23,668 nt of DNA from a virus. Below, piece by piece: positions 1 to 20,794 of this stretch. The stretch covers positions 1-23,668 of the IMG/VR virus record IMGVR_UViG_3300027996_000166. One strand, 5' to 3'. How positions within the stretch are numbered: position 1 is the first letter of the stretch; the number at the start of each line of letters is the position of its first letter. Position numbers and translations under genes: made by a program. The notes below the pieces were generated by a model. That model did no database searches, was not told the origin of the DNA, and was given only the letters and a program-made list of their open reading frames with translations.

Positions 1-3000
1 GTATGTTTTTACTAGCGTTATTTAATTCACTCGGCCCTAACAGTATTTGACCAAGTGCAGTGTCATCACTGTTTTCTTGTGTGTCCTCACCTGACCAAGG
101 GTTTGGTGGCTGGTTACAAGTTGATAAATTACCACCACCACAAGGACTAAATCTTTGACCTAGTTTGTTATCAAAATTAAAACCACTTATGATAGGACCA
201 TCATCATCTTCATCGGTAATAAAAAATCCAGGATTACTTGGGTCTTCTACAAGTGTTGGAGTTCCAGGAGCAAAAAAATCTGAATCAATACTTTGGTCTA
301 CCTGTCCAGTGATTATTTCAGTATAAATTTTAGAAATTTCTTTTACGTACTGATAGTTTTGATTTTTTAATTCATTTTCATGACAACCAGACCCTCTATC
401 AAATAATGCTGAAACATTACAACCAGTCGCATCTATCAGGTATTTTAAAACATCTATTGGGTCTTGGTAACTGGTTATCCCTATGTCATTAAACCAAAAA
501 TTTGGGTCCCAACCATCTTCATAAAATGTCCCTGGAAAAAATTGTGGATTTTGTTTATATAAATCAAAAACACAACTGCTTTTATTTATACAATTTTCTA
601 TTTCATTTAATGTATCCCCACACATTTCAATACGGCCTAATGACACAATTTTAGTTGAGTTATAGGCGTTACAATATATGTTATCATCAATATCTGTTGC
701 TCCATTACCACAAGAATAACCATCACAGTTACCAAGTACTGTTTTGTTATGCCAATGTTTATGGTAATTTATGAAGTTTGTACTATAATTACCATCGGTT
801 GTTTCGGAACCCCTAATTAAACAATTTTTACACCTCTTTGGTGTATTATTGACATGTGGACAACATTGGTTGCTTCTGTAATTATCTGATGACCTAGTGT
901 CAGCACCAGGTCCACAAAATTTTTCTTTTTTAACTAGCTCACCACTTTGCTTTTTTAGTTTAGACTTGTACTTATATTGAAATAAATAAGCTGTACCAGT
1001 AATCCATGCGTCAAAGAAGCATCTTCTAATGACCTGTCTTTTTTCGGCTAATTCTATAATCCTACAACATAACCATTTTTCAAGGACATCTAAAGCACCA
1101 CAATTATTTTCATTAGCAACAAAAGAAAATGCTTTAAGACAAAGAACTGGGTCGTTACAGGTGGCGTCCGCAGGTAAAGCTAATGTGTCATCTGGACAAC
1201 CACAAACCTCTTTTATTGATATTATTCCGCTAATATCTGGTGAAGAAGGTGGGGTACAATCGATTCCATCGTCACAATTAGCGGTTCCACCACATGGTGG
1301 ACCATTATCGTCCCCACAAACTGAACCACTGTCTGGGTTTGTGTGTATACAATATTCTTCATCCGCACAAGATAGTGAAAACCCTCTTGAATTTGGACCA
1401 TATTGTATACAACAATACGAATCTTCTTCATCATCACAAAATTGAGACATAATATTACCAAGCCAACCAAAGGGCCGGAAGGCTATTATACTATAAAATC
1501 TAACTAAACAAAAAGGTGTGCCAAATATTGTGAAAGATAGGTTAAACCCTATATAAAAACCAAATGATAGTGTCATCATAATTATTATCATCCTAATAAA
1601 AGCCGCACCAATTTGTAAGAAAAAACTACCTAATCCAAACAAGAAGTCGGGTTTTTTAACAGCTGTATTAAATGGCATTACGTTATTAGCTGCCCCATCA
1701 GCGTCCGTATTTTTTAATCCAAGAAAACTCCACCTACTATTACCTTTTTTATATTTTTTTATATATTGAGCTATTGTGTATAATTGCTTCCACTCAAATA
1801 AGTGAAAATCTTTAAGTATAGAATTACCCGATGACGACGCAAAATTCAAATCATCAGTTTTATAGTCTGATATATCGTCTGTAAATCTTTGGTCTTCCGT
1901 ACCTCCGATGTTATCAGTATGACCGTCAGTTGTAAACCCTGGTGTACCACCGTGAGGTACACCTAAACTTGGGAAAATCATGTTGGCTGTCCTTCTTTTT
2001 CTATTAGATGGTGGTTCGTTGAAGGACATTTTCATCCTATACAAAGCTTTTGTCGGTAGTCCTATTTCTGGGTCTTCAGAAGGCACTAAATCACCAACTT
2101 CGTTGGTTACGACTCTACCAATATTCATTGGTAATGTAGTAACAAAAGTACCGTCATCATCAATTAAATCACCACCATTTATATCAAAAAATTCTAACTC
2201 GGTTGGTACAATCTTTTTGTTTTGAACCCACTCTACTATGTTTACTTCTTTTGCCCTTATAAAATTAATGGTTCCAGCCCCAGTTCTTAATTCTGTTAAT
2301 TCACCCATATCATTTCTTGGGTTGCATCTTTTATTAATAGAATTTTTTTCATTATCAGAAAATATTGAGCCTGTGAATAAAGCTGTTGGTTCTAGGACCA
2401 CATTAGTATCTATATCTACTCTTGTTATACCTATTTCACAATTTTCTGGTTTACCCCAAAATGGTATAACGTCTACTGACTGATTACTAGATTTTATTTG
2501 GACTAGTGTGTCTAGATTTTTACTTGTTTTAAACTTAGTATACCCATCGAAAAACCCTAATGGTGCCCCTTGTGATATTAAATCGTAAGGTCTACTACTT
2601 AATAAACCACAGTCACTTAGGTCTGTATCCATGTGTATGATTCTTGGCCCCACTGGTACGCCAAATAACATAAAGTCACCCGATTCATTAGTTTTTGTCG
2701 TATATTTGTAGTATTTTTCAAAAACTTCTATTATTACTTCGTTTGATAGGAGTGTTTCTTTGTCTGGAAAAGTACCTGTTGGTACATTTAAGTCACAGGT
2801 GGTTGTATTTAGTAATAGGTTATATCTATACCCCTCATTGTTTTTATCTGTTAGGCTCTTATATGGGTATAAATCTTTTATTAATTCGTTTTTTTCGTCC
2901 TCATCTGTGATTGGTATGAATATGGATACTTTTGAATTGGGTACACCAAAACCTTGATTGGCTAAAACCCTACCAACAACAACACCATAATTAGAGCAAA

Positions 3001-3142
3001 AATCTGCATACAAATCTTCTTGTGATATTTTTAAACTTAATACCTCTAAAAAATCAAAACTTTGTTCTAGTTTTACCTTTAAATGTTTATCATCACCACC
3101 TGGTTTTGTTTTTAATCTTATAGTTTTATTTAACTCTTCCAT
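1..3142 (-). CDS. Giant tail/baseplate protein with hydrophobic span and Cys-rich C-terminal half (3' end off window)
   Basis: An uninterrupted minus-strand frame of at least 1047 codons starts at ATG 3142-3140 and runs off the left edge. I scanned it codon by codon and found no stop. Residues about 25-145 resemble an Ig-like carboxypeptidase-regulatory fold: a GRVLANQGFGVPNSKVSIF strand pair and a later SGDFMLFGVPVGPR turn. Residues about 499-563 are almost entirely apolar and include IIIMMTLSFGFYIGF, enough for one or two membrane-spanning helices. After residue 565 the protein becomes cysteine-rich, with at least 32 Cys in 483 residues including CC doublets, against 5 Cys in the first 498. 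The start shares one base with the stop of the upstream gene (TAATG), so coupled translation is likely. It is the last visible gene of the structural operon. A virion role is inferred from context; the exact function is unknown. Confidence 0.8.
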   Translation of the reverse strand, partial: MEELNKTIRLKTKPGGDDKHLKVKLEQSFDFLEVLSLKISQEDLYADFCSNYGVVVGRVLANQGFGVPNSKVSIFIPITDEDEKNELIKDLYPYKSLTDKNNEGYRYNLLLNTTTCDLNVPTGTFPDKETLLSNEVIIEVFEKYYKYTTKTNESGDFMLFGVPVGPRIIHMDTDLSDCGLLSSRPYDLISQGAPLGFFDGYTKFKTSKNLDTLVQIKSSNQSVDVIPFWGKPENCEIGITRVDIDTNVVLEPTALFTGSIFSDNEKNSINKRCNPRNDMGELTELRTGAGTINFIRAKEVNIVEWVQNKKIVPTELEFFDINGGDLIDDDGTFVTTLPMNIGRVVTNEVGDLVPSEDPEIGLPTKALYRMKMSFNEPPSNRKRRTANMIFPSLGVPHGGTPGFTTDGHTDNIGGTEDQRFTDDISDYKTDDLNFASSSGNSILKDFHLFEWKQLYTIAQYIKKYKKGNSRWSFLGLKNTDADGAANNVMPFNTAVKKPDFLFGLGSFFLQIGAAFIRMIIIMMTLSFGFYIGFNLSFTIFGTPFCLVRFYSIIAFRPFGWLGNIMSQFCDDEEDSYCCIQYGPNSRGFSLSCADEEYCIHTNPDSGSVCGDDNGPPCGGTANCDDGIDCTPPSSPDISGIISIKEVCGCPDDTLALPADATCNDPVLCLKAFSFVANENNCGALDVLEKWLCCRIIELAEKRQVIRRCFFDAWITGTAYLFQYKYKSKLKKQSGELVKKEKFCGPGADTRSSDNYRSNQCCPHVNNTPKRCKNCLIRGSETTDGNYSTNFINYHKHWHNKTVLGNCDGYSCGNGATDIDDNIYCNAYNSTKIVSLGRIEMCGDTLNEIENCINKSSCVFDLYKQNPQFFPGTFYEDGWDPNFWFNDIGITSYQDPIDVLKYLIDATGCNVSALFDRGSGCHENELKNQNYQYVKEISKIYTEIITGQVDQSIDSDFFAPGTPTLVEDPSNPGFFITDEDDDGPIISGFNFDNKLGQRFSPCGGGNLSTCNQPPNPWSGEDTQENSDDTALGQILLGPSELNNASKNI

Positions 3143-4692
3143 TAATATCCGTATATTATCTTATCATTTCTAGTGTTGAAATACCCTATAACATTTGAAC
3201 TTGTTGTTATATCTTCATTTAACATATTTTTATATATCTTTTCAAATATCACCCTAAATTTATAGTCTTTATTGACATCTAAATTAGTAACATTAGTACT
3301 ATATGTTGTTTCGGTTGTATTATATTCTACTTTTGTTGTTGAGAACAGACTAGTCCAATTAGTGTCTGACTCCTCAGTAACTTCAACCGTAAAATAACCT
3401 TCATTCCTTATTTGTTCAATTATTGGGGTTACATTCCATTGTAAAATAACACTATCTTTATCTAATGTGCCTAAATTATTATACGAATCTAAGTTAGTTT
3501 TAAAATACCAAAAAGAAAGTATATCACCCTCTTTAATTGTTATGTAGTTTGGGTTAAATATTATTTTGTTAGGCGTTGTGGTACTTTTGTAGAATTCTAT
3601 ACCATCAAATAATTTTAAACCATTAACCATAGCTACAACTGTAGATTCATAATCAAAATTAGATGTTAAAAACACTTCTTGTGTGCCCTTTACTATATTA
3701 TTGTTAACTATGTTTGTTGTTGAGGCTGTAACACCGTTTGTGAATCCAGTTACTTGGAATGTGTCTATCTTAAATAACTCATTACTAGGTACTGATATTG
3801 CCGTTTGGAAACTCTCGGGACCAATCAAATACACAATCGTAATTATATCCCTAGATTCAATATTACCACTAGATATGTTTACTATAGGTGTCGTTCTAGG
3901 GTATAACGAGTTATCCATGGTGTAGTCTAGTGTTGGCGTTAATAAAACACCATTAACGTATAGGTTAATTTCATTACCTATAGGTTGATTAGCTAAATTA
4001 AAATAGTTTTTAAAATTACTACCTTTTATCGTTTCTTGTATCATAGTTACCCTATCTACTATATTGGCGAAAGTTTTACTAATTGTAGGTTTTGCTGGGT
4101 TAGTCACAGTTATAAAATACCAATCATAATCAAAGTTAAAATTATTTAATTGGTTTGAGTTTTCCCATGTGTCTATTTTTCTTTTAACGCACTCTTTGGG
4201 TGTGAATTTATAGTAACTCCTTAACATATACTCTGTGTTAGTGAGTGGTAATTCACCTAAAGATATTATATCGTTTATTGTTGTTGATGTTATTGCACTA
4301 AACTCATGACACTTTTCAAAAGATGGTGTTACGTTATTTAATGTTTTAAATGCGTTGTTTAACGAGAAGTTTGTTCTATTATATATTTTATAACAAAAAT
4401 TACCAGTATACCCAGTGTAATCAGTAGAGCCCGTAAAATTAAACCCTAAGTCTATATCATTAACTTCTGAAAAATTATAGACGGAATAACAGTTCGTAGG
4501 TGTGCCACTACATGGTGTTGTTGAACCAGTAACTGGTTTTGTTGCCCCACTTACCCAATATGTCGGCCCATTAAAGGGTTCGAAACAAAAATTAGTTACG
4601 GGGTTAACGTTATATATGTTACTTAAACCTAAATCCCTATCTAATGGGGTGTCCATATACTTATTTTCTTTTATTTTACATAAAAATCCCAT
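3142..4692 (-). CDS. Tail/fibre-type structural protein with fibre-like beta modules and FN3-like C-terminus
   Basis: This is a 516-residue protein. Residues about 240-290 and 337-397 are two copies of a module with a VNG(V/L)xL strand, a DY or EFY turn, and a final GD-I or RD-I strand followed by an aromatic. Similar modules are common in phage tail-fibre and adaptor proteins. Residues about 415-505 have the strand pattern of a fibronectin type III domain (VILQWNVTP, then DYKFRVIFEKIY). The N-terminal 170 residues have scattered Cys but no recognised fold. ATG 4692 overlaps the upstream stop as TAATG, like other junctions here. An alternative start is Met13 at 4656, which has a longer A-rich leader. 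The role as a peripheral tail or fibre-attachment protein is inferred from the modules and neighbours. Confidence 0.8.
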   Translation of the reverse strand: MGFLCKIKENKYMDTPLDRDLGLSNIYNVNPVTNFCFEPFNGPTYWVSGATKPVTGSTTPCSGTPTNCYSVYNFSEVNDIDLGFNFTGSTDYTGYTGNFCYKIYNRTNFSLNNAFKTLNNVTPSFEKCHEFSAITSTTINDIISLGELPLTNTEYMLRSYYKFTPKECVKRKIDTWENSNQLNNFNFDYDWYFITVTNPAKPTISKTFANIVDRVTMIQETIKGSNFKNYFNLANQPIGNEINLYVNGVLLTPTLDYTMDNSLYPRTTPIVNISSGNIESRDIITIVYLIGPESFQTAISVPSNELFKIDTFQVTGFTNGVTASTTNIVNNNIVKGTQEVFLTSNFDYESTVVAMVNGLKLFDGIEFYKSTTTPNKIIFNPNYITIKEGDILSFWYFKTNLDSYNNLGTLDKDSVILQWNVTPIIEQIRNEGYFTVEVTEESDTNWTSLFSTTKVEYNTTETTYSTNVTNLDVNKDYKFRVIFEKIYKNMLNEDITTSSNVIGYFNTRNDKIIYGY

Positions 4693-7600
4693 TATTCTAA
4701 TATTATATCATTTTTTGCTGCTTGTAATCTACCTTGGTACTGTAATTTTCTTCGTTTTCTTTCCTCTATGCCACCAACTGTTGACGGTAGGATTGTCGTG
4801 ACACCATTTTCTTTCGGTAGTGGTTTTATTTTTACTGTTTCAGTATCTATTGGTCCATTCTCAGTCGATTCGTAATCTAGTTCTCTGTACGTAACGTCAC
4901 GGGATTCATTACCATTATTTGTGTCGTAACTTTGTGACCTACCACTAGTTATTGGTTGTGGTGTTAGATTTGTATCATTAGGAATTGTCGTGACATCCCC
5001 CTCAACAAACTCAAAGTCAAAATCACACTCATCGTATTGTGTACATATTTCGTCTGGTCTATTACACCACCTTTCACCCGACACAAATATTGTTGTTGCT
5101 GGTATGAATTGTTCAACAAATTGTACCCAAAAACTTTGAAATGTTTTCTTATACCCCTCTAATTCTAATAAAGTAAATTTTGTTTTACACGCTAATGGGT
5201 CAGAATTTTGTGTTAAAATAATTGTTGTTGTTGAAGCTGTTGTTGCCCCACTATAACATGTGTTACCACTTAATGTAAAATTGTCAATACACCCTATGGT
5301 AGTTCTATAACATGTTTCGGTTCCAGCACTTAATGTATATTCATCTGGACAAGGACCACCAATATTACACATATCAAATGTTAAAAATAATTCTTTACTG
5401 TTAAGAACTAAATTACTATGTTTTTCTAAAACAGATGATTGTTTAAAATAATCAGTATACCTCCATTCTAATTCAGCGTCCAAACTAGGGGCGAAAGTTC
5501 TATTTATTTCACCATAACCTTCAATTAATCCGTATTGCCCTTGGGTTATTATCCTATTGTCAGTAAATCTACCACTTTGGTTTTGGTATTCGGAATACCC
5601 TAACTCACCAGGATTATAAACCCAAGATTTTTTATTATCTATCACTGGGGCTATATCAAAACCTGGGCAATCATTATTTATTATTTCAGTTATCGTTAAT
5701 TCTTCATTACAATTAAACTTAAAATTATCTAAGAATATATCATATACACAACAACAATTTAATCCAGACGTAAATTGTAGATAGGCGTTAAAACCTTCAG
5801 TAGTACCTGTTGTTGGTATTGTAAATTGTGTCGTAATATCAAACCAAGTTTCTAAATCAATAAAAGAAAATGAGTCTGATGTTTGTATAACATTATTTTT
5901 ATCATCTCTTATAACTAAGTTGACTGATATTGGTGCTTCTGGGTTATAACAACAAGGTGTTTCAGTTTCACCACTAATTGTTTGTGGTAACTGTTGTGAT
6001 GTTTGTGGGGTTCTTTTTGTTGTTGTTGAGTTATAGTCAACTAAATTATTGTTTTCATCAAATGATAATAAACATGGTTCCGTTGGGTTTTCTATTATTA
6101 TTATATCATCATCATTATCTTCTATCTCAACACAAGGGTTTTCAGGTTTACCAAAATAAAATGACATTGATACATCTATTGGTGTTTCACATTCTGGTTT
6201 GATTAAGTCTCTATTTAGTTTAAATTCTAGTGGTAAACATGGGTTTGGGTCACTTGTAAAACAATTAACATCACCATTATAACTTTCATATGACCACGGT
6301 AAATTATTAGCTGAAGCTATTTGTAAACAACACGTTTCACTTATTGATTCATTATTAAAAGTTACAATTGTTATATTTTGATTAAAGTCATCAACAATTG
6401 TTGTCATGGTTATGTCAGTTAAACTAACATTACAATCGTCCTGTGGTTCACAAAAACATAACGTACCATCAAAAAACCCACCTAATTCATCACATTTAGT
6501 AGAACTAACTGACTGTGGTATTCCTTGGCTTTCTGTTTGTTGTGGTCCTTGTGTTATTTCATAACATAAATAAAACCCACCACTAACAGCTAAAGCGTTG
6601 GATAGTAATATTTTTACTTTTACGTCCTCACTAATATCGTCACCATCTATATCTGAACTATTAAAGGCGTTATTAATAACAAAAATAACCTCATCAGAAG
6701 ATAAACCTAAAGATAATAGTGTTTCTGGTGTTAATAATAATTTAGCCCCTTCTTCTGTTGACGCTATGGATAAAAATAATCCAACATCAGTCAAACACTC
6801 ACACTCTATTATAGTTTCGGGTATTGTATCACAAAGACAAACTGACGATTCTTCACCAAACTCATTAACATTAGTGGTGAAGTTAGAGTCTGATAGGGCT
6901 TTACAACAATTTTCATTTACTATTGGTTCACCTGTTAATATGTCTATATAAAAACTACCGTTACCAAAGTTTGGTGTTAATGGGTTTGTTGGGTCTGATG
7001 TTATAACACTAACTAAAAAGTCCCAAAGTGGTGTGTTTATATTTTGTAAACTATCACCATTCATTGTTGTATATAAATTATCCCACCAAGCAAAATTATC
7101 ACAATCAACACATGTAATTCTTTCTTGTAGTTCATTAGTGGTTATTAAACCCAAGTCATAGGTTTCACATAAACTAGATGGCTCTAATAGGTTACAAGTT
7201 CTTGTGACTGAATCCCAAGAAACAATATTACCCAATGATTCATAATAAGTACAACACTCTTCAGTTAATGACATATCTCCATTACTAACAACTTCACCTA
7301 AAGTTGTTATAGTGTAAAATAAATCTTTACAGTTTATTAAATCTGTATCCGTGTCTGGGTTGTTATCCCCAACCCCATTTGGGTTTAAAACTAAATCACC
7401 TAAGTCTAGTATTGGGCCACCACTATTCGTATCACCATAAGTACAACAATTATCACAGGGGTTTACCGCTTCTGGGTTAAAGTTATTTGCTTGTGTGTCT
7501 ATACACCCAGTTACGGAAACACTACCGTACTGACAACAACCATTTGTTAATACACCACCTAAATCTGGTTGTGGGGTTGCACCAAATACATAACCAGTGC

Positions 7601-7694
7601 ACCAAATAGATGCGAATGGATTATAGTTACTAGCTGCTGGGTCTAAACAACCAACCCCCTCTTTATCACCACCTATTTCTATTATATTTGCCAT
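4692..7694 (-). CDS. 1000-residue Cys-rich virion protein with GC-D repeats
   Basis: It carries 49 cysteines, including CC doublets at 53, 83, 147, 263, 455 and 581 and a CCC at 647. Two N-terminal repeats start at GCLDPAASNYNPFA (residue 15) and GCIDTQANNFNPEA (residue 63). These match a module I associate with Bacteroidota extracellular proteins. Residues 348-357 (DIDGDDISED) look like an EF-hand or dockerin-type calcium loop. Residues about 505-662 have the strand layout of a carbohydrate-binding jelly roll, from SMSFYFGKPENP to YDIFLDNFKF. A QFVEQFIPATTIFVSGERWC segment lies at 858-877. The C-terminus is basic (EERKRRK, 977-983). No signal peptide is seen. It starts 15 nt after the gpI-like gene under an A-rich leader. 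A large tail or adhesion component is inferred; no named homologue is recognised. Confidence 0.82.
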   Translation of the reverse strand: MANIIEIGGDKEGVGCLDPAASNYNPFASIWCTGYVFGATPQPDLGGVLTNGCCQYGSVSVTGCIDTQANNFNPEAVNPCDNCCTYGDTNSGGPILDLGDLVLNPNGVGDNNPDTDTDLINCKDLFYTITTLGEVVSNGDMSLTEECCTYYESLGNIVSWDSVTRTCNLLEPSSLCETYDLGLITTNELQERITCVDCDNFAWWDNLYTTMNGDSLQNINTPLWDFLVSVITSDPTNPLTPNFGNGSFYIDILTGEPIVNENCCKALSDSNFTTNVNEFGEESSVCLCDTIPETIIECECLTDVGLFLSIASTEEGAKLLLTPETLLSLGLSSDEVIFVINNAFNSSDIDGDDISEDVKVKILLSNALAVSGGFYLCYEITQGPQQTESQGIPQSVSSTKCDELGGFFDGTLCFCEPQDDCNVSLTDITMTTIVDDFNQNITIVTFNNESISETCCLQIASANNLPWSYESYNGDVNCFTSDPNPCLPLEFKLNRDLIKPECETPIDVSMSFYFGKPENPCVEIEDNDDDIIIIENPTEPCLLSFDENNNLVDYNSTTTKRTPQTSQQLPQTISGETETPCCYNPEAPISVNLVIRDDKNNVIQTSDSFSFIDLETWFDITTQFTIPTTGTTEGFNAYLQFTSGLNCCCVYDIFLDNFKFNCNEELTITEIINNDCPGFDIAPVIDNKKSWVYNPGELGYSEYQNQSGRFTDNRIITQGQYGLIEGYGEINRTFAPSLDAELEWRYTDYFKQSSVLEKHSNLVLNSKELFLTFDMCNIGGPCPDEYTLSAGTETCYRTTIGCIDNFTLSGNTCYSGATTASTTTIILTQNSDPLACKTKFTLLELEGYKKTFQSFWVQFVEQFIPATTIFVSGERWCNRPDEICTQYDECDFDFEFVEGDVTTIPNDTNLTPQPITSGRSQSYDTNNGNESRDVTYRELDYESTENGPIDTETVKIKPLPKENGVTTILPSTVGGIEERKRRKLQYQGRLQAAKNDIILE
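7437..7649 (-). repeat. Two GC-D-x-x-A-x-N-Y/F-N-P protein repeats
   Basis: These are two adjacent copies of a Cys-containing module at residues about 16-57 and 64-86 of the 1000-residue protein. Each opens with GC(L/I)D, continues A-x-N-(Y/F)-NP-x-A, and closes with a CC-x-Y-G. A third copy lies in the 298-residue protein at about 13577-13645. The module resembles repeats in Bacteroidota secreted proteins and may be calcium-binding or disulfide-pinned; that function is inferred. Confidence 0.6.
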
Positions 7695-7709: not shown

Positions 7710-9695
7710 TTATGCTAGATAACACCCAACCCCAATTTGCCATAACGCGTTTTGGTTGCCACTTACTGACTTATAATATATACAACAGTTCTCACTTATT
7801 GGTACACCGTTAGTGTCGGTTATTATTGTGTATTCAATACCACCAATGGTTTGTATATCTAATAAATAATTACCAGGAGAAGCTATTGGATGAAACGTTG
7901 GCGGTATATATGGTGGGCATATGTAACAACCTACACCTGAGACCTCTTCCCCAAATACATTGAGTAATGGTTCTGAGGCATAAAACCCATCGATATTTTC
8001 ACAACAATCTTTATTGTATAATGAACCATCTAAATTTGTTATTGTATTACTAATGTTGTCAATCAATGGGTCAGTACATCTTCTACAAAAAGGTGTGCTT
8101 CCTTGTGTTTGTATGTATTCAAACCCTAAAGATGTACAACAAGCGTTTGATAGTGTGTTACCACTTAAATCCGTTATATTAATTGTATTATCGTCTAATA
8201 CTGTTTCTTTAATTTCTCTAGGACATGGGAAACAACCAAGCTTTTCATTACCTAACGTTTGGATGGTGTTGTAAGTTGCTCTGAGTTGTTCGTAGGTACC
8301 CGATGCAGTTATTAAACTTATTGTGGGGGACCCAAAATAATAACCTAAAGATAGACAGCAAGACTGTGAAAGTATTGTAAAGTTATCCACACCAACCGGT
8401 TGTGTATCATCAATTAACGTCCCAAATAAACCATTAAAATTTATGGTTGTTTCTCTCGAACATTCATCTACATTCGTAACTATTTCACATAATTTTGTTT
8501 TAGGGTTCCAAGTACCACCCCTTAATTTACAACATTCTTCATTTTTCAATATTTCACCATTAAACATATAAAAACTTTTACCATTACTAAAATATGTGTT
8601 CATTACCATAATTAAGAAAGTACGAGCCTCTAATGGGTCGTTTCCGGTATACCCGTATTGTGTCGCTAATGTTAATATTTGTGTTTCACTATCACCTATG
8701 TTAGATAAAAAACTTTCTGGGGTATTTATAAGGTCTAGTGCCGATTCTGGTGGACACCACCAACAATAATAGAAGTTTTCATCTACTGGTGGTATCGTAC
8801 CTTGTTGGTCTACACCTATAGGCGTGGTGTTGTTTGGTTCCTGTTGTCTATTGGTTGGACCAGAAAACCCAAATCCCGTCTGACCACAATCAGTACAAAC
8901 TTCAAAATAGTTATCACCACTATTGTAGGGGTAGACCTCCATTACATATGTCGATGGGCCCGCCTCATCTAATAAGATATCTGTTGATAGTGTTTGGTAA
9001 GGATTTTTAAAATCTGAAAAAACAATTATTGGTATGGGTCCTGGTGATGACGGTAATTTTTTTAATACGTAATAAATACCAGGTTGTGATGCCCCAGCAA
9101 CAATACCAGATATGGGCCCTTTGGTTGTAATAGTTAAGGTTATTGGGTTAGTCACTGAAGCGGTTGGTGCGTCTATTGTAAATTGAGCTGTTGCCGGTGC
9201 TGAACCAGTACCACTCCATTCCGTTTGTGGTACATCTTTGAAAACAATACTATTACCGACACAATCATTATTAGTTGTGAGAGTTCCGCCAACACCAGTA
9301 ATGTTAGTTTGTAAAAATGTTAATTGGCAATCTGTTGTATTCCCATCTGGTCCGTCTATAACGATTACTTCAGCAGAATCAGCAGGGTTAGATATGGTTT
9401 TTTTAAAACAAATTACCCCATTTTCTGTTGTTTTTGGTATTAACCCGAACCTAGAACAACATTCCTCATTTTCTACATAATATGTGGTGGTTCCATTAGC
9501 GTCAATAAAACCTTCAAACCCTTCACCATTTGTTACTTCCGACCAAACCCAACCTTCACAAGGTACTGTGTTTGGTCCCCAATAAAAATCACAACACTCC
9601 TCAATATCGTGTGGGACACTTGTCTGGGTTTTAGGGTCCGAAATGTAAATTAACCCAGAAGGGTGAAAAGTTATGTCTGTTGGGCAGTCCGCACA
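7710..9695 (-). repeat. Array of CxxC...CC cysteine modules in the gpI-like protein
   Basis: Residues 671-1331 contain a degenerate repeating unit. A CxxC (often CxxCP) is followed 24-77 residues later by a CC doublet, usually in an (E/S/N)-x-CC setting such as NEECCKLRGG, SQSCCLSLGY, NACCTSLGF or KDCCENIDGF. The last unit ends four residues from the C-terminus (GVGCYLA). Seven CC doublets are visible. Similar doublets occur in the 1000-residue neighbour. I cannot assign a known domain name. Confidence 0.65.
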
Positions 9696-11705
9696 TAATT
9701 CCGATTCTCCAGCTTGGAATGTTATTCTTAGTGAATGGGTGTCACCACTATCTCTAACGTTTATTGGACCATCTGCATTACCAAATGAAACCAACCCTGC
9801 TGACAAAACATTAATATTATCATCTGGGTTTACAAAGAATGGTGAAACCTCTTGTCCGTAATTAGAGAATGGTTGCCCATTTTCATTTGGGGTGAATGTT
9901 CCGTTATTATACTCAGTAAAATAGTTAGTTATTAATGGTTCTGTCCTATTAATGTTTGTTGTTTCTTGGAACTCTTCAATGAAACATCTAAATCTATCCC
10001 AATATCTTTGTCCAAAATCATATGTACCGTAATGTGGGTTATTTCCTGTGGTTCTTATATTCCCTCCATTATACCAAAACCCATCATTTTGAAACCAAAA
10101 TGTTTCATCGTCTTTTGGTACCTCTGGAAATCCATTGTCATCAAAAGGGAATGTATTATAATTAAGGTCAAAATAATCAGGCCCAAACAGACTATTAAAT
10201 TGTCTTCTAACCGCATTCAAATCTAATCTATCTTTAGCTAAATAAACTCTTTCGTCCATAGTAACTAAACAATTATTTATACCAAACAATTTCATGAAAA
10301 ATTCTAAAACTTTTCTAGTACCCTTAGACCTAAACAACCACCAAGCATTTATAACCAATCTTCTCCATAACTCAATGTCTATTTCTTTTGCTGATAGTTC
10401 TCTTGAATAACCCGCGAATTGTGGGTCGTCACCTTCCTCGTCATTCTCCAATAAATTAAAAGCATTTCCTGTTGTAATTAAGGTGTCAAACCCTAATGTT
10501 TTTGCCATTATCTTTATTAAGCTATCTGATGTGTTATCTTTTTTATTATAAGTTACAACATTAGCGAAAGAAATGCCATCAATATATTTTTTAATTACAT
10601 CAAATTCTACACCATATACTCTTAATAGTTTAGAAACCCTCATACCAGTTTGTGAAGTACCCTCACCTTCTGTATCATATTCTATGATTGAGTCGGAAAC
10701 AAACCTTCTTAGTACTAAATCTGTTTTATTTTCATCATATAAATTAGCTATTTTAAATAAATTTTCTATATAATCTTCATAAGAAGCTGTGTTTATATCT
10801 AAATTGTAACCATCACTTGTTGGCCAAGAAAAACTTTTAAGTGTAAAACCTATATCACCATTACCATACTTAATTGGCACATTTATAGTAAAATTATATA
10901 TGGGTATCGTTAACCTGTCCAATAAAAGATTTTGAAAATCAGTTAAATTTATGAAAAATTTATCCCTTATTGTTTTGGTTGGTTTTATTTGGAAATTTCT
11001 TTGTGAAAAAGTTGTGCCCGATAATCCATTAAAAACTTTTCCATTAATATTAAAATATATATACCTATCACCGGTTGTTTTACCAGTCATACCTTTTATG
11101 GTGTACTCATTATCATTTTCATCACTTAAAACATATTCTGATACTTGTGAGGGTATATTATCTTGACCAAATGGATTATCAGTATAGTCTAAATTATATG
11201 GGTTATTAACCCCCACTGTTGGTGTTTTAAATGTTGCTGTATCTGTCGGTGTGTCGTAATTAAAATCTAATATGGTATTTATGCCTGATGGTCTTTGTTG
11301 GTTCGCATTTATGGGATTAACTGTTATTGATAAAGAGGCTGGCCATTTAACAATTATTTCTTGTACTGTATTTTCTAAAAACTTATAAAAACTACCAAAA
11401 TAAACGTATCTATTAATATTTGTTTTATCATAATTTAAATTAACATACACATTATTAGAGACCATTGTTTGTAACTCTGACTCAGTTATATTTAAATTAT
11501 TTAAATTATAGTAGTCTGACCATTCACCTAACTTAAAGTCTTGTGCCACCCTACCCTCAAAGTTGGATGTTATCGCGAAATTACCTAAAGTAAAAAAGGC
11601 ATTCGGGTCTGTAAACTGATTACCGACTAGACTTGGAGCAAAATCACCTTGTCTTAGTTTATAAGCGTCTGTTAACGAACCTGGTACTACTTTTCTTACT
11701 GCCAT
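7710..11705 (-). CDS. Baseplate protein: P2 gpI-like segment fused to Cys-rich C-terminal half
   Basis: This is a 1331-residue protein. Residues about 436-480 carry the P2 gpI-type tail protein signature: ELWRRLVINAWWLFRSKGTR, then VLEFFMKLFGI. In P2-like tails gpI follows J in the baseplate, and here it lies downstream of the J/gp6-like gene. Residues 1-430 are presumably wedge scaffold. From residue 671 the composition changes abruptly: 33 Cys in 661 residues against 2 in the first 670. CC doublets fall at 704, 749, 1058, 1116, 1189, 1234 and 1307, and CxxC pairs at 671, 937, 981, 1158, 1207 and 1260. Typical P2 gpI is only about 180 residues, so this is a large extension. It starts 11 nt after its upstream neighbour with MAVRK. 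Baseplate assignment is good; the function of the C-terminal half is unknown. Confidence 0.85.
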   Translation of the reverse strand: MAVRKVVPGSLTDAYKLRQGDFAPSLVGNQFTDPNAFFTLGNFAITSNFEGRVAQDFKLGEWSDYYNLNNLNITESELQTMVSNNVYVNLNYDKTNINRYVYFGSFYKFLENTVQEIIVKWPASLSITVNPINANQQRPSGINTILDFNYDTPTDTATFKTPTVGVNNPYNLDYTDNPFGQDNIPSQVSEYVLSDENDNEYTIKGMTGKTTGDRYIYFNINGKVFNGLSGTTFSQRNFQIKPTKTIRDKFFINLTDFQNLLLDRLTIPIYNFTINVPIKYGNGDIGFTLKSFSWPTSDGYNLDINTASYEDYIENLFKIANLYDENKTDLVLRRFVSDSIIEYDTEGEGTSQTGMRVSKLLRVYGVEFDVIKKYIDGISFANVVTYNKKDNTSDSLIKIMAKTLGFDTLITTGNAFNLLENDEEGDDPQFAGYSRELSAKEIDIELWRRLVINAWWLFRSKGTRKVLEFFMKLFGINNCLVTMDERVYLAKDRLDLNAVRRQFNSLFGPDYFDLNYNTFPFDDNGFPEVPKDDETFWFQNDGFWYNGGNIRTTGNNPHYGTYDFGQRYWDRFRCFIEEFQETTNINRTEPLITNYFTEYNNGTFTPNENGQPFSNYGQEVSPFFVNPDDNINVLSAGLVSFGNADGPINVRDSGDTHSLRITFQAGESELCADCPTDITFHPSGLIYISDPKTQTSVPHDIEECCDFYWGPNTVPCEGWVWSEVTNGEGFEGFIDANGTTTYYVENEECCSRFGLIPKTTENGVICFKKTISNPADSAEVIVIDGPDGNTTDCQLTFLQTNITGVGGTLTTNNDCVGNSIVFKDVPQTEWSGTGSAPATAQFTIDAPTASVTNPITLTITTKGPISGIVAGASQPGIYYVLKKLPSSPGPIPIIVFSDFKNPYQTLSTDILLDEAGPSTYVMEVYPYNSGDNYFEVCTDCGQTGFGFSGPTNRQQEPNNTTPIGVDQQGTIPPVDENFYYCWWCPPESALDLINTPESFLSNIGDSETQILTLATQYGYTGNDPLEARTFLIMVMNTYFSNGKSFYMFNGEILKNEECCKLRGGTWNPKTKLCEIVTNVDECSRETTINFNGLFGTLIDDTQPVGVDNFTILSQSCCLSLGYYFGSPTISLITASGTYEQLRATYNTIQTLGNEKLGCFPCPREIKETVLDDNTINITDLSGNTLSNACCTSLGFEYIQTQGSTPFCRRCTDPLIDNISNTITNLDGSLYNKDCCENIDGFYASEPLLNVFGEEVSGVGCYICPPYIPPTFHPIASPGNYLLDIQTIGGIEYTIITDTNGVPISENCCIYYKSVSGNQNALWQIGVGCYLA

Positions 11706-13072: not shown

Positions 13073-13969
13073 TTAATCCGGCACACAATAGAATTTATAC
13101 TGTCTTCTATGTCCACTACCACAACCAATGCTGTTGTCTTTCCATTTTACCCCACCAAAAATATTGCCGTCATCAGTAGAACTACAATTACACCCATTAT
13201 CAAATGTTCCATCACAACCAAAACCTTCAGATGTGCATTCAGCTTGTGTTAGTAGATGGTGTGTGTTTGCTGGACCTGGACAACAATGACATGGGTTTGG
13301 TATGACCGTTGGGGCACTTGCGGTAGCGATACACCCTGTGGTTTGTGCTTTACCACATCCGTTTGATTTACATCCATCAATTATTGCGTAGCTGGTACCG
13401 CAACTAGGGTGTATCGCTTTACACCATTCGTCAGCCTTATTCTCTAAAGTTGTTATAGATGGTAATTCTGCTACTGTTGCTTTACAAGATGTACCTAATA
13501 GATAACAACCGCCACCAATTGAACCTGCGGGTGTGTCAACCGAAACCCCGCCAGATGTTGTACCACCCGTAAAACCGTAGTCACAACAGCTCACACACTG
13601 AACTGTTGCTGAATCAGAATAGTTTATAGCGTTCATATCCATACAACCCGTTATTATAAAATCACCAGGTGTTGTTACATTAGTATTGTTTTCATCGTAG
13701 TTACTTGTTTCCCCACTACTTATAGGGTTTGTACCAAAATCACCATAACCATCATTATCTGTGTTCCAAAAACTACCCAAATCTACCACTTCTCGCGGTG
13801 GTTTAACATCAGTATAAACCCCCAAATCTTTTATACTTTGTTTAATTAGTATTGGTAAAAATAAATCTTCCTGATTAATATAGGCGATAGTGTCTTCAAT
13901 ACCATCATTATCCGTATCAATAGTTGTTAAAATTCTTTTAACCTTAATATTTCTTTCATATTTTTCCAC
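13073..13969 (-). CDS. Cys-rich (20 Cys) calcium-loop virion protein
   Basis: This is a 298-residue protein with 20 cysteines, nearly all after residue 108. Two thrombospondin-type-3-like acidic loops, DTDNDGIED (18-26) and NTDNDGYGD (69-77), are likely calcium-binding. At 108-131 sits a GC-D repeat (GCMDMNAINYSDSA, ending CCDYG), related to the two copies in the 1000-residue protein. A dense Cys/Gly region follows, including CHCC (227-230), and the C-terminus is basic-aromatic (GHRRQYKFYCVPD). The start is GTG at 13969-13967, overlapping the upstream TAG stop as TAGTG; its first residues EKY are shared with the upstream protein's start MEKYS. No signal peptide is visible. It may be a receptor-facing or spike-associated part of the baseplate, which is inference. 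Confidence 0.78.
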   Translation of the reverse strand: MEKYERNIKVKRILTTIDTDNDGIEDTIAYINQEDLFLPILIKQSIKDLGVYTDVKPPREVVDLGSFWNTDNDGYGDFGTNPISSGETSNYDENNTNVTTPGDFIITGCMDMNAINYSDSATVQCVSCCDYGFTGGTTSGGVSVDTPAGSIGGGCYLLGTSCKATVAELPSITTLENKADEWCKAIHPSCGTSYAIIDGCKSNGCGKAQTTGCIATASAPTVIPNPCHCCPGPANTHHLLTQAECTSEGFGCDGTFDNGCNCSSTDDGNIFGGVKWKDNSIGCGSGHRRQYKFYCVPD

Positions 13970-16573: not shown

Positions 16574-18397
16574 TTATTCTTTAACTCTAACTTTTATATC
16601 TGTTTGTGGGAATCTTATTTGAAACATCGAGTCGTATTCAGCGAATAATGTAAAATCTTCTGTTAAATTTATCTGTAACGTTTCTAAATCTGACATTTCT
16701 TGTGTTGTAACATTACTAGAATACGGTGTACCAGTCCTATTGAATACTTTGAAATCTATAACATTTAAAACCCCACCTACATTATTTATATTTTCGATTA
16801 ATTGTGATAAATAAATATTATCACCCATGTCCCAATCCTGTACTTTAAAATATTTTTGTACAGAATCAATAACCCCAGCAATAACTTCACCTCTTGAAAA
16901 TGCTTTATCTATAAAAATGTCTATATCAAAAGCCAAGTCAAATATTTTACCGTCCCTAGTTAAAACATAGTCATTAATCATTCTATAATCGGCTAACCAA
17001 GAGGCTATATTTTCTTTAAGTGTATTTGTAGACGAATTACTTAATTTTCCTTGACTGTCTAACCCTATAATCGCAATATCTATTTTATTTTGTCTTTCAG
17101 ATACGTTATTTCTAAACGGTATACCAAACGTACCAGGCATTTTATCTATTAATACAACATAATCTTTTAATGTTACTGCTCTATTTTGTGAAGAAAAGTT
17201 ATATCTAACCATCTTTTTTATTTGTTCAGTACTGGGAGCGTCAGCACCACCAAAAGCTGGGACTGGGTTATTTACTTTCAATGAGCCCTGAACCCTTTGA
17301 TTTGTTTGAGCGTTTGGCCCATTTACCTCCATAATGTAAGCTCCTCTAGCTGTTAATGTGTTAGCCCCAACATTGGCGTTTGCTCCACCACCAGTTCTAT
17401 ATCTAATATACATGGTTTTACCAACAGTTGGTATTTCACCCATAGCTGTGGTATTTATAAAATCACCAATTCTTAATGTAAAATTGTTGTTTGCGTAAGT
17501 ATTTAATTGTTCTTGGTCAGCATTACCCGAACCAAACGTCATTTTACAAAACCCCTTATCTGTATATTCTTTAATAAATCTTCTATTCGTATTAACCCAT
17601 TTACCTGGTGTTATCGTTGTATTATCTGTTTGTCTTGTTTTGTCTTGTATAAAAATTTTATCTTCCATTAAAGAATCCATTTCATACCAACTTAATTCTG
17701 GGTCCGAAAATTGTGATAGTGTTGGGTTTCCTTGTAAATTAGCTCCTTCAAGAGTAATTACTTGTTCTATAGATATTACGTTTGTGTTTGGTAGTACTAA
17801 CTCTAAAAATGGTTTGGCATCTATTTCTGTTATGGTCTTACTAAAAACATTTGTAACACCGGCCACTACAAATTCTCTTTTAACTAATGTATACCCAACT
17901 AAAGTTCCGTTTTGATTTAAATTTGGTAGTACTAATCTATTTGGTATTCCACCAATACTTAATGGTTCACTGAAATCAATATCATCAAGTGTTTCAAAAC
18001 TCTGACCACCACCTAAAACTTGAGCCCCATACTTTAATGTTGGTGCGTATCTTATGTCAAAGGTGTCACCATTGACTGGAACATTTACAGAAAAATCTAC
18101 TATAGATACCGATGGTCTTTTACCTGGAACATTTAAACCTAAAGTTCTAGCTATATTTAATATTGATTTTCTTTCTTGTGCAAAATCTAATTGTGTTTCT
18201 TGGAACATCCTATCGGTATTGAATGATAACATGTCTGATACTGCCGCGTTTAATTCTATTAACATAGTACCAATAGATGCATCATTAAAGTCTTGGAATG
18301 TTTCTGGGTAATATTTTTTAATAAAATTAAATAACTCTGTCCTTACGTCAGAAAAGTTTCTAGCGAAGTAATTAATTTTTTTGTTTGTTGTTGCCAT
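16574..18397 (-). CDS. Baseplate wedge protein, T4 gp6 / P2 gpJ family
   Basis: This 607-residue protein (T4 gp6 is about 660) belongs to the Baseplate_J family that forms the inner ring of contractile-tail baseplates. The diagnostic segment is at about 387-413: DAPSTEQIKKMVRYNF, then NRAVTLKDYVVLI, matching the family pattern of (P)(S/T)xExIK followed by RAVT-xxDY. The N-terminus (FNFIKKYYPETFQDF at 23-37, then a helical NTDRMFQETQLDFAQERKS at 60-78) fits T4 gp6-like proteins of environmental phages. It lies 1 nt downstream of the gp25-like gene, the W-J order conserved in P2-like and T4-like tails. In the assembled phage it should dimerise and join gp25 in the wedge. Confidence 0.92.
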   Translation of the reverse strand: MATTNKKINYFARNFSDVRTELFNFIKKYYPETFQDFNDASIGTMLIELNAAVSDMLSFNTDRMFQETQLDFAQERKSILNIARTLGLNVPGKRPSVSIVDFSVNVPVNGDTFDIRYAPTLKYGAQVLGGGQSFETLDDIDFSEPLSIGGIPNRLVLPNLNQNGTLVGYTLVKREFVVAGVTNVFSKTITEIDAKPFLELVLPNTNVISIEQVITLEGANLQGNPTLSQFSDPELSWYEMDSLMEDKIFIQDKTRQTDNTTITPGKWVNTNRRFIKEYTDKGFCKMTFGSGNADQEQLNTYANNNFTLRIGDFINTTAMGEIPTVGKTMYIRYRTGGGANANVGANTLTARGAYIMEVNGPNAQTNQRVQGSLKVNNPVPAFGGADAPSTEQIKKMVRYNFSSQNRAVTLKDYVVLIDKMPGTFGIPFRNNVSERQNKIDIAIIGLDSQGKLSNSSTNTLKENIASWLADYRMINDYVLTRDGKIFDLAFDIDIFIDKAFSRGEVIAGVIDSVQKYFKVQDWDMGDNIYLSQLIENINNVGGVLNVIDFKVFNRTGTPYSSNVTTQEMSDLETLQINLTEDFTLFAEYDSMFQIRFPQTDIKVRVKE

Positions 18398-18398
18398 T

Positions 18399-18782
18399 TT
18401 ATAATTCTATTTCTATAAAATCAGTACCAGCGAAAGAGGCCGAAGTAACTTTATAGTCTAGTCTAACTATTGCTGCCTTTTCGTTTCTTTCTGATTTAGA
18501 TACTGTTATTTCTAATATTGTTAGGTTTGGTATGAATTCTTTTATTGCTGCCTCTATTTCTGATTGTATAGATTTGTGTACTATACCGTCATTTTGTTCA
18601 AAAATATATTGTCTTAAGTTAACACCAAAAGATGGTAAATAAAGTCTTTGCCTTTTTTGTGTTAATAAAAGATGTAGTAAATCGGCTTTAATCGCTCTTT
18701 TACTAGTTTTTTCCATCTTTAGAAATTTACCTTTAGGGTCTTCTTCAAATGGAAACGATATATTTATGTATTTTTCTGCCAT
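18399..18782 (-). CDS. Baseplate wedge protein, T4 gp25 / P2 gpW lysozyme-like family
   Basis: This 127-residue protein is close to the 132 of T4 gp25. The family core is visible: a helix ending LLHLLLTQKRQRLYLPSFG (36-54), corresponding to the LLxTxxGER...PxFG segment, then LRQYIFE and a later amphipathic helix (SIQSEIEAAIKEFIP) with beta strands to the C-terminus. Despite the lysozyme-like name, this family is structural: it joins the gp6-like protein and contacts the sheath. It is the first gene after the terminator at 18851-18881 and probably the promoter-proximal gene of the structural operon. Its leader (AATAAAAAGAA before the ATG) is A-rich, with no canonical Shine-Dalgarno. Confidence 0.93.
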   Translation of the reverse strand: MAEKYINISFPFEEDPKGKFLKMEKTSKRAIKADLLHLLLTQKRQRLYLPSFGVNLRQYIFEQNDGIVHKSIQSEIEAAIKEFIPNLTILEITVSKSERNEKAAIVRLDYKVTSASFAGTDFIEIEL

Positions 18783-18895: not shown

Positions 18896-20110
18896 TTAGT
18901 TTATTTCTTCTTTTTCTGCGATAGTAGATAAGTCTACGTCAATCTCACATTGCCCACCACCACAAGCAATTTCACCACTTAAGTCTGTATTATCTTCTGT
19001 TTCTATGATTTTACTTAAATCAACGTCTAATAATGACTTCATCATTTCAAAATATTTTTCTTCTGTAATATCTTCAAATGGGGCCTGTACATATGTTCCA
19101 CCATCATAAGGTAATACCGATAAACCATTATAAAATTTACGATTCTCCCACATCCACTCACCAGCTAAATCCCAATCATTTTCTTTTAATGAAATTGTTG
19201 CTGAGACATTATGTGTGTTGGAACCTTTTCTATGACCTGGACTTATCCATTCTTGTGACACTTTTTTCACCCTTTCTAATAATTCAAATGGTGACTCTGT
19301 TCTCATAATAGCACCCTCTGGTGATTTTTGTGGTATTTCAATAACAGCCGTGTCATGTGGTCTGTAGTATTCATCTTGAATTAATTCTGGATGGAATTCA
19401 GATAAATATCCATATATTGATTCGTTTTTACCAACTCTGATTCTTCTAATGTAGTAATCATTATGCCAAGCGTGAATACCTGATGAAGTACCTAATGTTA
19501 ATGAAGTTGTTCCAGCCGGTTTAACCGTAGTACATCTAGCTGCTGGGTTAATTCCTATTAATTTAGCTACCCTAGTGTTTTCTTTTTTAACCAAACTAGC
19601 CGATTTTGTCATATCATAACCTAAAACTGTACCACTACCAATACCTGTCATTGATACGCCTATTAAAGCATCTTTTTCTGTGGTTTCTCTCCACTCTTCT
19701 CTTAGGTAATGAAAATCTGTGTAACCTGCTTGTAGTGTACCAATAAACGCTGCCCCTTTGACTCTTTCATTTAAATCTTCCTGACTTTCAATATCTGAAG
19801 CATTTACCTCACATAAGTTACAGAACTGAAATGGTCTTAGTGCTATTTCACAACATGGATTTGTACCCCAATCTTTATCATTTGAAAAGTAAATACCTGG
19901 TTCTCCAGCCCCCGATAATTCAACACGTTTCCAAACATCTAAAAAGAACTCTTTTGTTACTTTGTGTCTCATTAGTACCGCTGAATTATTAGCTCTACCT
20001 CTTTGTGGGTTAAGTTCCCACCAATTTCCTGCCTTACAAGAAATCATTTCATCATCGTCAGCTGAAAATAATGATATTAAAGCTGCTCTACGTATACCAC
20101 CAGCTAACAC
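18896..20110 (-). CDS. Class II ribonucleotide reductase, C-terminal (catalytic) part after in-frame stop
   Basis: This is the larger part of an adenosylcobalamin-dependent ribonucleotide reductase, which makes deoxynucleotides for phage DNA. The listed start is an internal GTG, but the frame is open up to 20170, and its extra 20 residues are conserved family sequence (THDIVCYIADA just before VLAGGIRR). It is therefore probably not an independent start. Catalytic residues in this numbering are N84, the thiyl-radical C86 and E88 in NPCCEI, with partner C97 in FCNLCEVN. A PAGTTS phosphate-binding loop lies at 198-203. The C-terminal redox pair is C383/C388 (CGGGQC), as in the Lactobacillus leichmannii triphosphate reductase. 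It stops at TAA 18896-18898, just before the terminator. No activity-cone domain is seen. Confidence 0.85.
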   Translation of the reverse strand: MLAGGIRRAALISLFSADDDEMISCKAGNWWELNPQRGRANNSAVLMRHKVTKEFFLDVWKRVELSGAGEPGIYFSNDKDWGTNPCCEIALRPFQFCNLCEVNASDIESQEDLNERVKGAAFIGTLQAGYTDFHYLREEWRETTEKDALIGVSMTGIGSGTVLGYDMTKSASLVKKENTRVAKLIGINPAARCTTVKPAGTTSLTLGTSSGIHAWHNDYYIRRIRVGKNESIYGYLSEFHPELIQDEYYRPHDTAVIEIPQKSPEGAIMRTESPFELLERVKKVSQEWISPGHRKGSNTHNVSATISLKENDWDLAGEWMWENRKFYNGLSVLPYDGGTYVQAPFEDITEEKYFEMMKSLLDVDLSKIIETEDNTDLSGEIACGGGQCEIDVDLSTIAEKEEIN

Positions 20111-20170
20111 AGCGTCAGCTATATAACAAACAATATCGTGTGTTTCGATTGTTGATAGGTTGTCACCATC

Positions 20171-20173
20171 TTA
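20171..20173 (-). other. In-frame TAA interrupting the class II ribonucleotide reductase
   Basis: The codons around it read K-TAA-D in one frame, with no shift. Conserved class II reductase sequence ends at GILSQK and resumes with DGDNLSTIETHDIVC. Removing this one codon's stop meaning would give a protein of about 632 residues. No ATG, GTG or TTG lies in frame between it and the GTG at 20110, so an efficient restart is not evident. Confidence 0.85.
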
Positions 20174-20794
20174 TTTTTGACTTAATATACCTTCTATTTT
20201 AAGTAAACACTCTTTAAGTGGTTGTGGTCCTGGCGCTTTACCACCAGACGTAACTAACATAGCCCCTTTTGGTCTGATGTCCGAAAAATCAAATTCGATA
20301 CGTGAACTTCGACCATTAAGATAAGATTTCATCAATACTTTAATTGCGTCAGCCCAACCTTCTATTGAGTCACCAATTAAAAATCTTTTTTTCCTTTTTG
20401 TGTATGGTTTGTTGATTGGTGGTAGTGAAGCTACATGATGTTTTTGTACTGAATAACCAACACCAGTCCCACCTAATAAAAGGAACATACATTCACTAAA
20501 AGCTTCTACACTATCAATAGGCATGTACGCACAATTATAAACTCTGTTTGGCGATATCTCCACTGGTTTACCCCCAAATTGCATGGACCTCATAGATGGT
20601 AATATTTTTTTATTATACACCAATTGATAAACTTTATTTATTTCGTCTTTAAGCTTTGGGTATCTTTTGATGTGCATATTTTTATTACGTGTTACCAATT
20701 CTTCCCAAGTTTCTCTTCTCTCCAATTCTGGCATATACTTAGCGTACTTCATATATACAGTTATGTCTGATAGAATTTTATTAGATAATTCCAT
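20171..20794 (-). CDS. Class II ribonucleotide reductase, N-terminal part (ends at in-frame TAA)
   Basis: These 207 residues are the start of the reductase completed by the next frame. ILPSMRSMQFGG (64-75) matches the family's PSMR-x-M-x-x-G segment. C88 in YNCAYMPID is the first of the two active-site redox cysteines. LLLGGTGVGYSVQ (105-117) and RPKGAMLVTSGGKAPGP (174-190) are core barrel segments. There is no N-terminal ATP-cone. Alone this fragment lacks the thiyl cysteine and cannot be an active reductase. The start is ATG 20794 under a long A-rich leader, 39 nt after the helicase. A recent nonsense mutation, a sequence error, readthrough or a two-chain enzyme would all fit; I favour mutation or error. 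Confidence 0.85.
   Translation of the reverse strand: MELSNKILSDITVYMKYAKYMPELERRETWEELVTRNKNMHIKRYPKLKDEINKVYQLVYNKKILPSMRSMQFGGKPVEISPNRVYNCAYMPIDSVEAFSECMFLLLGGTGVGYSVQKHHVASLPPINKPYTKRKKRFLIGDSIEGWADAIKVLMKSYLNGRSSRIEFDFSDIRPKGAMLVTSGGKAPGPQPLKECLLKIEGILSQK

Follow-up and report, generated by a model that had tools for sequence, protein, structure and literature searches.

What is the nature of a long cysteine-rich array joined to a baseplate protein, when phage structural proteins are assembled in the reducing cytoplasm and usually contain few cysteines? The question is raised by ORF D of the window, the whole 23,668-nt stretch of viral DNA analysed here (IMG/VR record IMGVR_UViG_3300027996_000166). 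A recount of D agreed with the initial annotation: 2 cysteines are present in residues 1-670 and 33 in residues 671-1331, with seven CC doublets (shuffle mean 1.6, p=0.0006) and six CxxC motifs (shuffle mean 1.6, p=0.003) in the tail. The (E/N/S)xCC context noted there was also recovered, the residues before CC being polar or acidic in all seven cases (HDIEECC, VENEECC, LKNEECC, ILSQSCC, TLSNACC, LYNKDCC, and PISENCC). The span 7710-9695 originally given to the array is too narrow, since the cysteine-rich stretch runs past 7710 into gene C. The features of the locus are listed in Table 1.

Viral contigs (up to 362 kb) were scanned with D, C, and J, yielding more than 120 loci from uncultured phages, and an iterated profile of D 1-660 found 61 ORFs. 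Nearly all of the near-complete ORFs consist of a cysteine-poor core of about 640 residues followed by a cysteine-rich stretch. Core cysteine count is mostly 2 (range 0-5, about 60 loci); in D the two are C479 and C574 (about 10269 and 9984 of the window), and most cores keep exactly two. The tails average 4.8% cysteine (range 2.3-7.0%) and hold between 1 and 8 CC each. In the relatives L006 and L003, the core is 64-68% identical to the window, versus 34-40% for the tail. Module order is kept between relatives, and near-identical tandem copies are found in L012/L131 and L137.

In 30 non-redundant homologous tails, CC totalled 133 against 36 expected (maximum 53 in 500 shuffles) and CxxC totalled 85 against 34 expected. 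When CC was kept in the shuffles, 73% of the gaps from CC to the next cysteine were 11-24 residues long (28% expected), and a next cysteine within 9 residues occurred in 1% (36% expected). At 160 profile-supported sites the median of this gap was 16 residues, with modes of 15, 13, and 17. The mere presence of C0 and C3 near CC is not clearly above chance at the cysteine content of the tails; the spacing alone is.

The repeat unit is C0-x(10-45)-CC-x(8-32)-C3, and its four cysteines are invariant in units aligned from many relatives. Each module runs from C0 (often CP) through a beta-rich stretch, L-S/T-x-x-CC and often a Gly/aromatic stretch to C3, with C0-CC and CC-C3 spacings that vary widely between modules. 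The best-conserved motifs of the tail include CYWCPP and CCxLRGGTW. In a coordinated-loss comparison aimed at the pairing partners, both cysteines of CC were lost together or kept together. The initial annotation had taken CxxC...CC as the unit, but most CxxC motifs mark a module junction, consisting of one module's C3 and the C0 that follows it. Its seven units hold up as one recurrent module, although they are unevenly placed, with a 290-aa spacer (D 767-1057) that has few cysteines and no CC; the few-cysteine segments of this region are variable between relatives.

An AlphaFold2 model of two modules of the compact relative L077 (mean pLDDT 75) gave a repeated strand-strand-helix(CC)-strand-strand order, so that each module is predicted to comprise two short strands, a short helix that bears CC, and a hairpin with C3 at its end. 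A search of the module profile, run as a check, assigned the units to no known domain in the libraries searched. Sequence searches of the tail or module against Pfam, PHROGs, and PDB gave no usable match, a PDB profile search of the module gave no solved relative (no match below E=0.6), and a PDB fold search of the two-module model gave no look-alike (best E 4.2). In BFVD, the fold search gave weak matches to three uncharacterised proteins of uncultured phages with no assigned function, A0A516LV21, A0A516MP93, and A0A516LRZ7 (probability 0.41-0.75, E 0.1-0.8, not significant). Modules of a similar kind may thus already be present, unannotated, in databases. A tblastn search of a relative's tail and gene C against annotated phages gave no match. 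The module thus appears undescribed in the libraries searched, while the protein carrying the array belongs to a known class.

Table 1. Coordinates of features of the wedge locus in the window
Feature	Position	Strand	Basis or content
D (ORF), 1331 aa	7710-11705	-	
D residues 1-637, Cys-poor conserved core, gp7/gpI (BW3)-class wedge protein	9795..11705	-	conservation, homology
D 366-479, gpI-like segment with ELWRRLVIN...SKGTRK motif	10269..10610	-	hhalign vs gpI alignment, E=0.024
Cys module 1 (C671xxC674, CC704, C716)	9558..9695	-	Cys positions in D
Cys module 2 (C716, CC749, C766)	9408..9560	-	Cys positions in D
Spacer, D 767-1057, few Cys, no CC; overlaps long C0-CC loop of module 3	8535..9407	-	
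CWWCPPE segment and Cys module 3 (C984, CC1058, C1073), long C0-CC loop	8487..8756	-	
Cys module 4 (C1082, CC1116, C1158xxC1161)	8223..8462	-	
Cys module 5 (C1161, CC1189, C1207xxC1210)	8076..8225	-	
Cys module 6 (C1210, CC1234, C1260xxC1263)	7917..8078	-	
Cys module 7 (C1263, CC1307, C1328), terminal, just before stop codon	7722..7919	-	
Gene C	4692-7694	-	49 Cys, 8 CC
Gene C residues 1-640, continued Cys-rich insert (35 Cys), CC-type modules included	5775..7694	-	
Gene C residues 640-917, second conserved domain (DNKKSWVY...QFIPATTI)	4944..5777	-	one chain with D core in 12 relatives
J, gpJ/gp6-class wedge protein, 607 aa, 1 Cys	16574..18397	-	Pfam Baseplate_J E=0.04
K, gp25-class wedge protein, 0 Cys	18399..18782	-	HMM matches to gene before J in immuto, Mel-JY01

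The class of the core was assigned from its locus and from homologs in cultured phages. J shares 25% identity with the 'baseplate wedge protein' of Flavobacterium phage immuto and also matches proteins of Microcystis phage Mel-JY01 and huge phage LR756508. In all three, as in the window, a gp25-class gene stands before J (annotated 'baseplate assembly protein' in immuto and 'tail lysozyme' in Mel-JY01), and a protein of 1265-1400 aa with 3-9 cysteines and no CC is encoded a few genes after J. These three proteins aligned to the D core by hhalign with 97.6% probability (E=3.9e-12, core profile columns 243-498). The gpI-like character that the initial annotation gave to the N-terminal part was thereby supported: an alignment of 11 P2-type gpI proteins matched D 366-479 through gpI residues 16-99, the expected KGT-motif segment, at a weak E=0.024, next to the far stronger match to locus homologs in cultured phages. 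The accompanying statement that gpI proteins are short does not hold for the class, since T4 gp7 has 1032 residues (PMC10457771) and the cultured relatives of the D core (immuto and Mel-JY01) have 1265-1336. The D core gave no usable match in Pfam, PHROGs, NCBIfam, or PDB sequences, TIGR02242 was detected in one relative (E=0.12), and an AlphaFold2 model of the N-terminal part was poor (pLDDT 58), its fold search returning no meaningful match. D is therefore best called a BW3-class protein, an assignment drawn from its locus and its homologs in cultured phages and not from a match to any family model.

The relation of D to gene C was seen in 12 ORFs in which the D core and the C-type second domain lie in one chain. 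In L035 and L042, the core directly adjoins the second domain, with 0 residues and 0 cysteines between them. Core and second domain are separated by 1227-1425 residues, with 35-50 cysteines and 4-7 CC, in nine complete fused ORFs, L130 among them; the tenth fused ORF with an insert, L046, is partial. In the window lineage, the same stretch is split by a stop and a start, gene C beginning 15 nt downstream of D, so the array spans D 671-1331 plus about C 1-640. Comparison of these sequences shows the array to be a large insert within a wedge protein of the gp7/gpI class; it reaches past the coordinates first noted. A simple C-terminal fusion is ruled out by the fused ORFs, in which core, array, and second domain form one chain; of the earlier proposal of modules fused to a gpI-like protein, the baseplate protein stands and the fusion gives way to an insertion. 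The three cultured or huge-phage outgroups also have no insert. The array may have been gained once or may have been lost in L035 and L042, which lie on long branches of the core tree.

With regard to hosts, the relatives do not establish the Bacteroidota link of the initial annotation: the closest named phages have Flavobacterium and Microcystis as hosts, and a further homolog is in a single-cell assembly of Prochlorococcus. That homolog was the single match when bacterial genomes were scanned with the D core, and the D tail had no match in them, so the scans gave no cellular source for the module. The contig concerned (L130, QCKH01000004.1, 83.8 kb), labelled as a single-cell genome of Prochlorococcus, shares synteny with the window and is probably phage; psbA is absent from it. 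Elsewhere in the window, a ribonucleotide reductase-like gene on the minus strand is broken by one in-frame TAA (about 20110-20171) between the ORFs 20171-20794 and 18896-20110. Both halves are matched by relatives of up to 997 aa and intact copies exist; the TAA is either a mutation or an assembly error. No RNA family was matched anywhere in the window.

The distribution of cysteine among the proteins of the locus was compared. The wedge-region proteins K, J, H, F, E, and I average 0.02-0.61% cysteine (about 50 orthologs each; in the window, J 0.16%, K 0, H 0, and I 0.48%). Across orthologs, the non-structural proteins L-P contain 1-2.2%, and A, C, G, and the D tails 2.6-5.3%; histidine makes up 0.36% of the D tails. 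Given wedge-region proteins this poor in cysteine and D tails at 4.8%, the thiols are confined to add-on parts, which fits parts that become oxidised. Gene A (2-3142) is itself cysteine-rich, with 38 cysteines and 3 CC; it runs off the window end and has conserved orthologs of up to 1637 aa (L130). Pfam and PHROGs searches gave no family for the cysteine-rich neighbours of D.

A second type of cysteine-based repeat, GC.D..A.N[YF], was observed at 7437-7655 in gene C, whose residues 1-640 begin with two copies, and at 13073-13969 in gene G; 40 ORFs in related loci carry it, and no Pfam model matched it. It has two forms, one with two cysteines and an acidic DDGSC-type site and one with four cysteines and CxxCC in its place. 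Once nine copies that lack a clear end are left out, the distinct copies comprise 29 with four cysteines, 7 with two, and 1 with three. The acidic DD/DN site is kept in 7/7 two-cysteine copies and DDG in 0/29 four-cysteine copies, indicating that the cysteines come as a pair in place of an acidic, calcium-type site. Going by sequence, the easiest reading of this paired gain is a disulfide.

Based on these results, D is the N-terminal half of a BW3-class wedge protein that has acquired a very long internal array of small four-cysteine modules. Each module would hold two disulfides, with one cysteine of CC bonded to C0 and the other to C3; these bonds would form after lysis or at the cell surface. 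Once oxidised, the array could form an arm or collar at the rim of the baseplate, semi-rigid and resistant to proteases. In known phages, BW3 (gpI, T4 gp7, and pyocin PA0619) forms a (BW2)2-BW3 heterotrimer and is the attachment site of the receptor-binding proteins at the baseplate periphery, as in T4, A511, R-pyocin and, by prediction, P2 (PMC10811340). By analogy with these four, the arm would be placed at the periphery, at the site where BW3 of other phages holds receptor-binding proteins, and may position adhesins or touch the host. Fast tail divergence and the range of 1 to 8 CC are as expected of an exposed part. A disulfide-stapled, extended peripheral arm is given a probability of roughly 0.5 as the nature of the array. 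The fewer cysteines of the cultured and huge-phage core homologs, the scarcity of histidine, and the disulfide-rich tails of Agrobacterium phage Milano were counted for it; odd cysteine totals, the missing oxidase, and four-cysteine Fe-S precedents in tail tips were counted against it. Even cysteine numbers were found in 8/24 complete tails, with no excess of even counts, so pairing within a single chain does not account for every cysteine. Searches of 16-20 large relatives for a phage gene encoding DsbA, VKOR, or an Erv1-type oxidase were negative; the Erv1 control gave no signal. Thioredoxins are present in L159 and L160, encoded some 15 kb away from the baseplate genes in a small conserved cluster common to both relatives; both adjoin DNA-metabolism genes and look cytoplasmic. 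A more tentative extension is that an undescribed C-CC-C beta-beta-alpha-beta-beta module was expanded in a universal wedge protein into a spoke of variable length, covalently stapled and belonging to the wedge chain itself, which would replace a separate fibre-connector network and oxidise only after lysis.

Among the options raised at the outset (metal sites, disulfides formed after lysis, or a redox-triggered switch), disulfides are favoured. A metal-binding array, in which each module would be a Cys4 site for Zn or an Fe-S cluster and the arm would fold in the reducing cytoplasm before lysis, is unlikely, even though each module has exactly four conserved cysteines, CxxC knuckles are frequent, four-cysteine Fe-S sites occur in tail tips, and no phage oxidase was found in the large relatives. 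Two of the four ligands would be the neighbouring residues of CC, an uncommon arrangement for Zn or Fe-S sites. Moreover, CxxC mostly spans two modules rather than lying within one, the C0-CC and CC-C3 spacings differ widely among modules, the neighbouring GC.D..A.N[YF] repeat has true two-cysteine forms, and no solved metal protein was matched in the PDB sequence and fold searches.

Less probable still is that the array itself is a tandem cysteine-rich receptor-binding element whose module number and loops track host receptors, stability being a by-product. Such a role would suit the fast divergence, the changing module number, the near-identical tandem copies in L012/L131 and L137, and the peripheral position of BW3 in known phages, but the kept module order argues for a structural role and no carbohydrate-binding or fibre domain was detected in the Pfam and PHROGs searches. 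A redox switch in the manner of Milano, whose inter-subunit disulfides in wedge, sheath, and tube (PMC10811340) would be matched here by a baseplate kept closed until reduced at the host surface, is least probable despite the odd cysteine totals that leave cysteines free for inter-chain bonds, because the wedge-region proteins are cysteine-depleted (0.02-0.61%; sheath and tube genes lie outside the window), the cysteines are confined to the insert, A, C, and G, and regular four-cysteine modules suggest local folding rather than inter-subunit bonds.

The array has consequences beyond this locus. With a wedge core almost free of cysteine and up to 50 cysteines in one inserted array, these uncultured aquatic phages offer a clean natural experiment on oxidative virion maturation, and a module missed by current family libraries becomes recognisable in giant baseplate proteins that otherwise have no annotation, in many environmental phages.

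Compared with known systems, the locus resembles the BW3 family (T4 gp7, P2 gpI, and R-pyocin PA0619) in the order gp25-class, gpJ/gp6-class, D-type protein, in the weakly matching gpI-like segment with its KGT motif, and in the homology of D to large proteins at the same place in immuto and Mel-JY01. It differs in the array, which the cultured and huge-phage homologs examined do not have and which adds more than 1000 residues here, and in the split of the gene in two. The GC-x-D-x-x-A-x-N-Y repeats are alike in being adjacent, cysteine-based, repeated, and part of the same protein assembly, but they have a distinct motif, carry two or four cysteines, and have no LSxxCC helix. The Fe-S domain of lambda gpL and the RcGTA hub likewise places four conserved cysteines in a tail-tip protein (PMC10721106, PMC7296036), but as a single site per protein and not as a repeated C-CC-C; no PDB sequence match below E=0.6 and no fold match below E=4 linked the module to it. 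Milano is also a contractile-tail phage with unusually many cysteines in baseplate-associated proteins: its structural proteins contain 2.1% cysteine, and its tail contracts in vitro only when DTT is added to the denaturant (PMC10811340). In Milano, the cysteines are in the wedge core, sheath, tube, and receptor-binding proteins, whereas here the core is nearly cysteine-free and the cysteines, at 4.8%, are in the module array.
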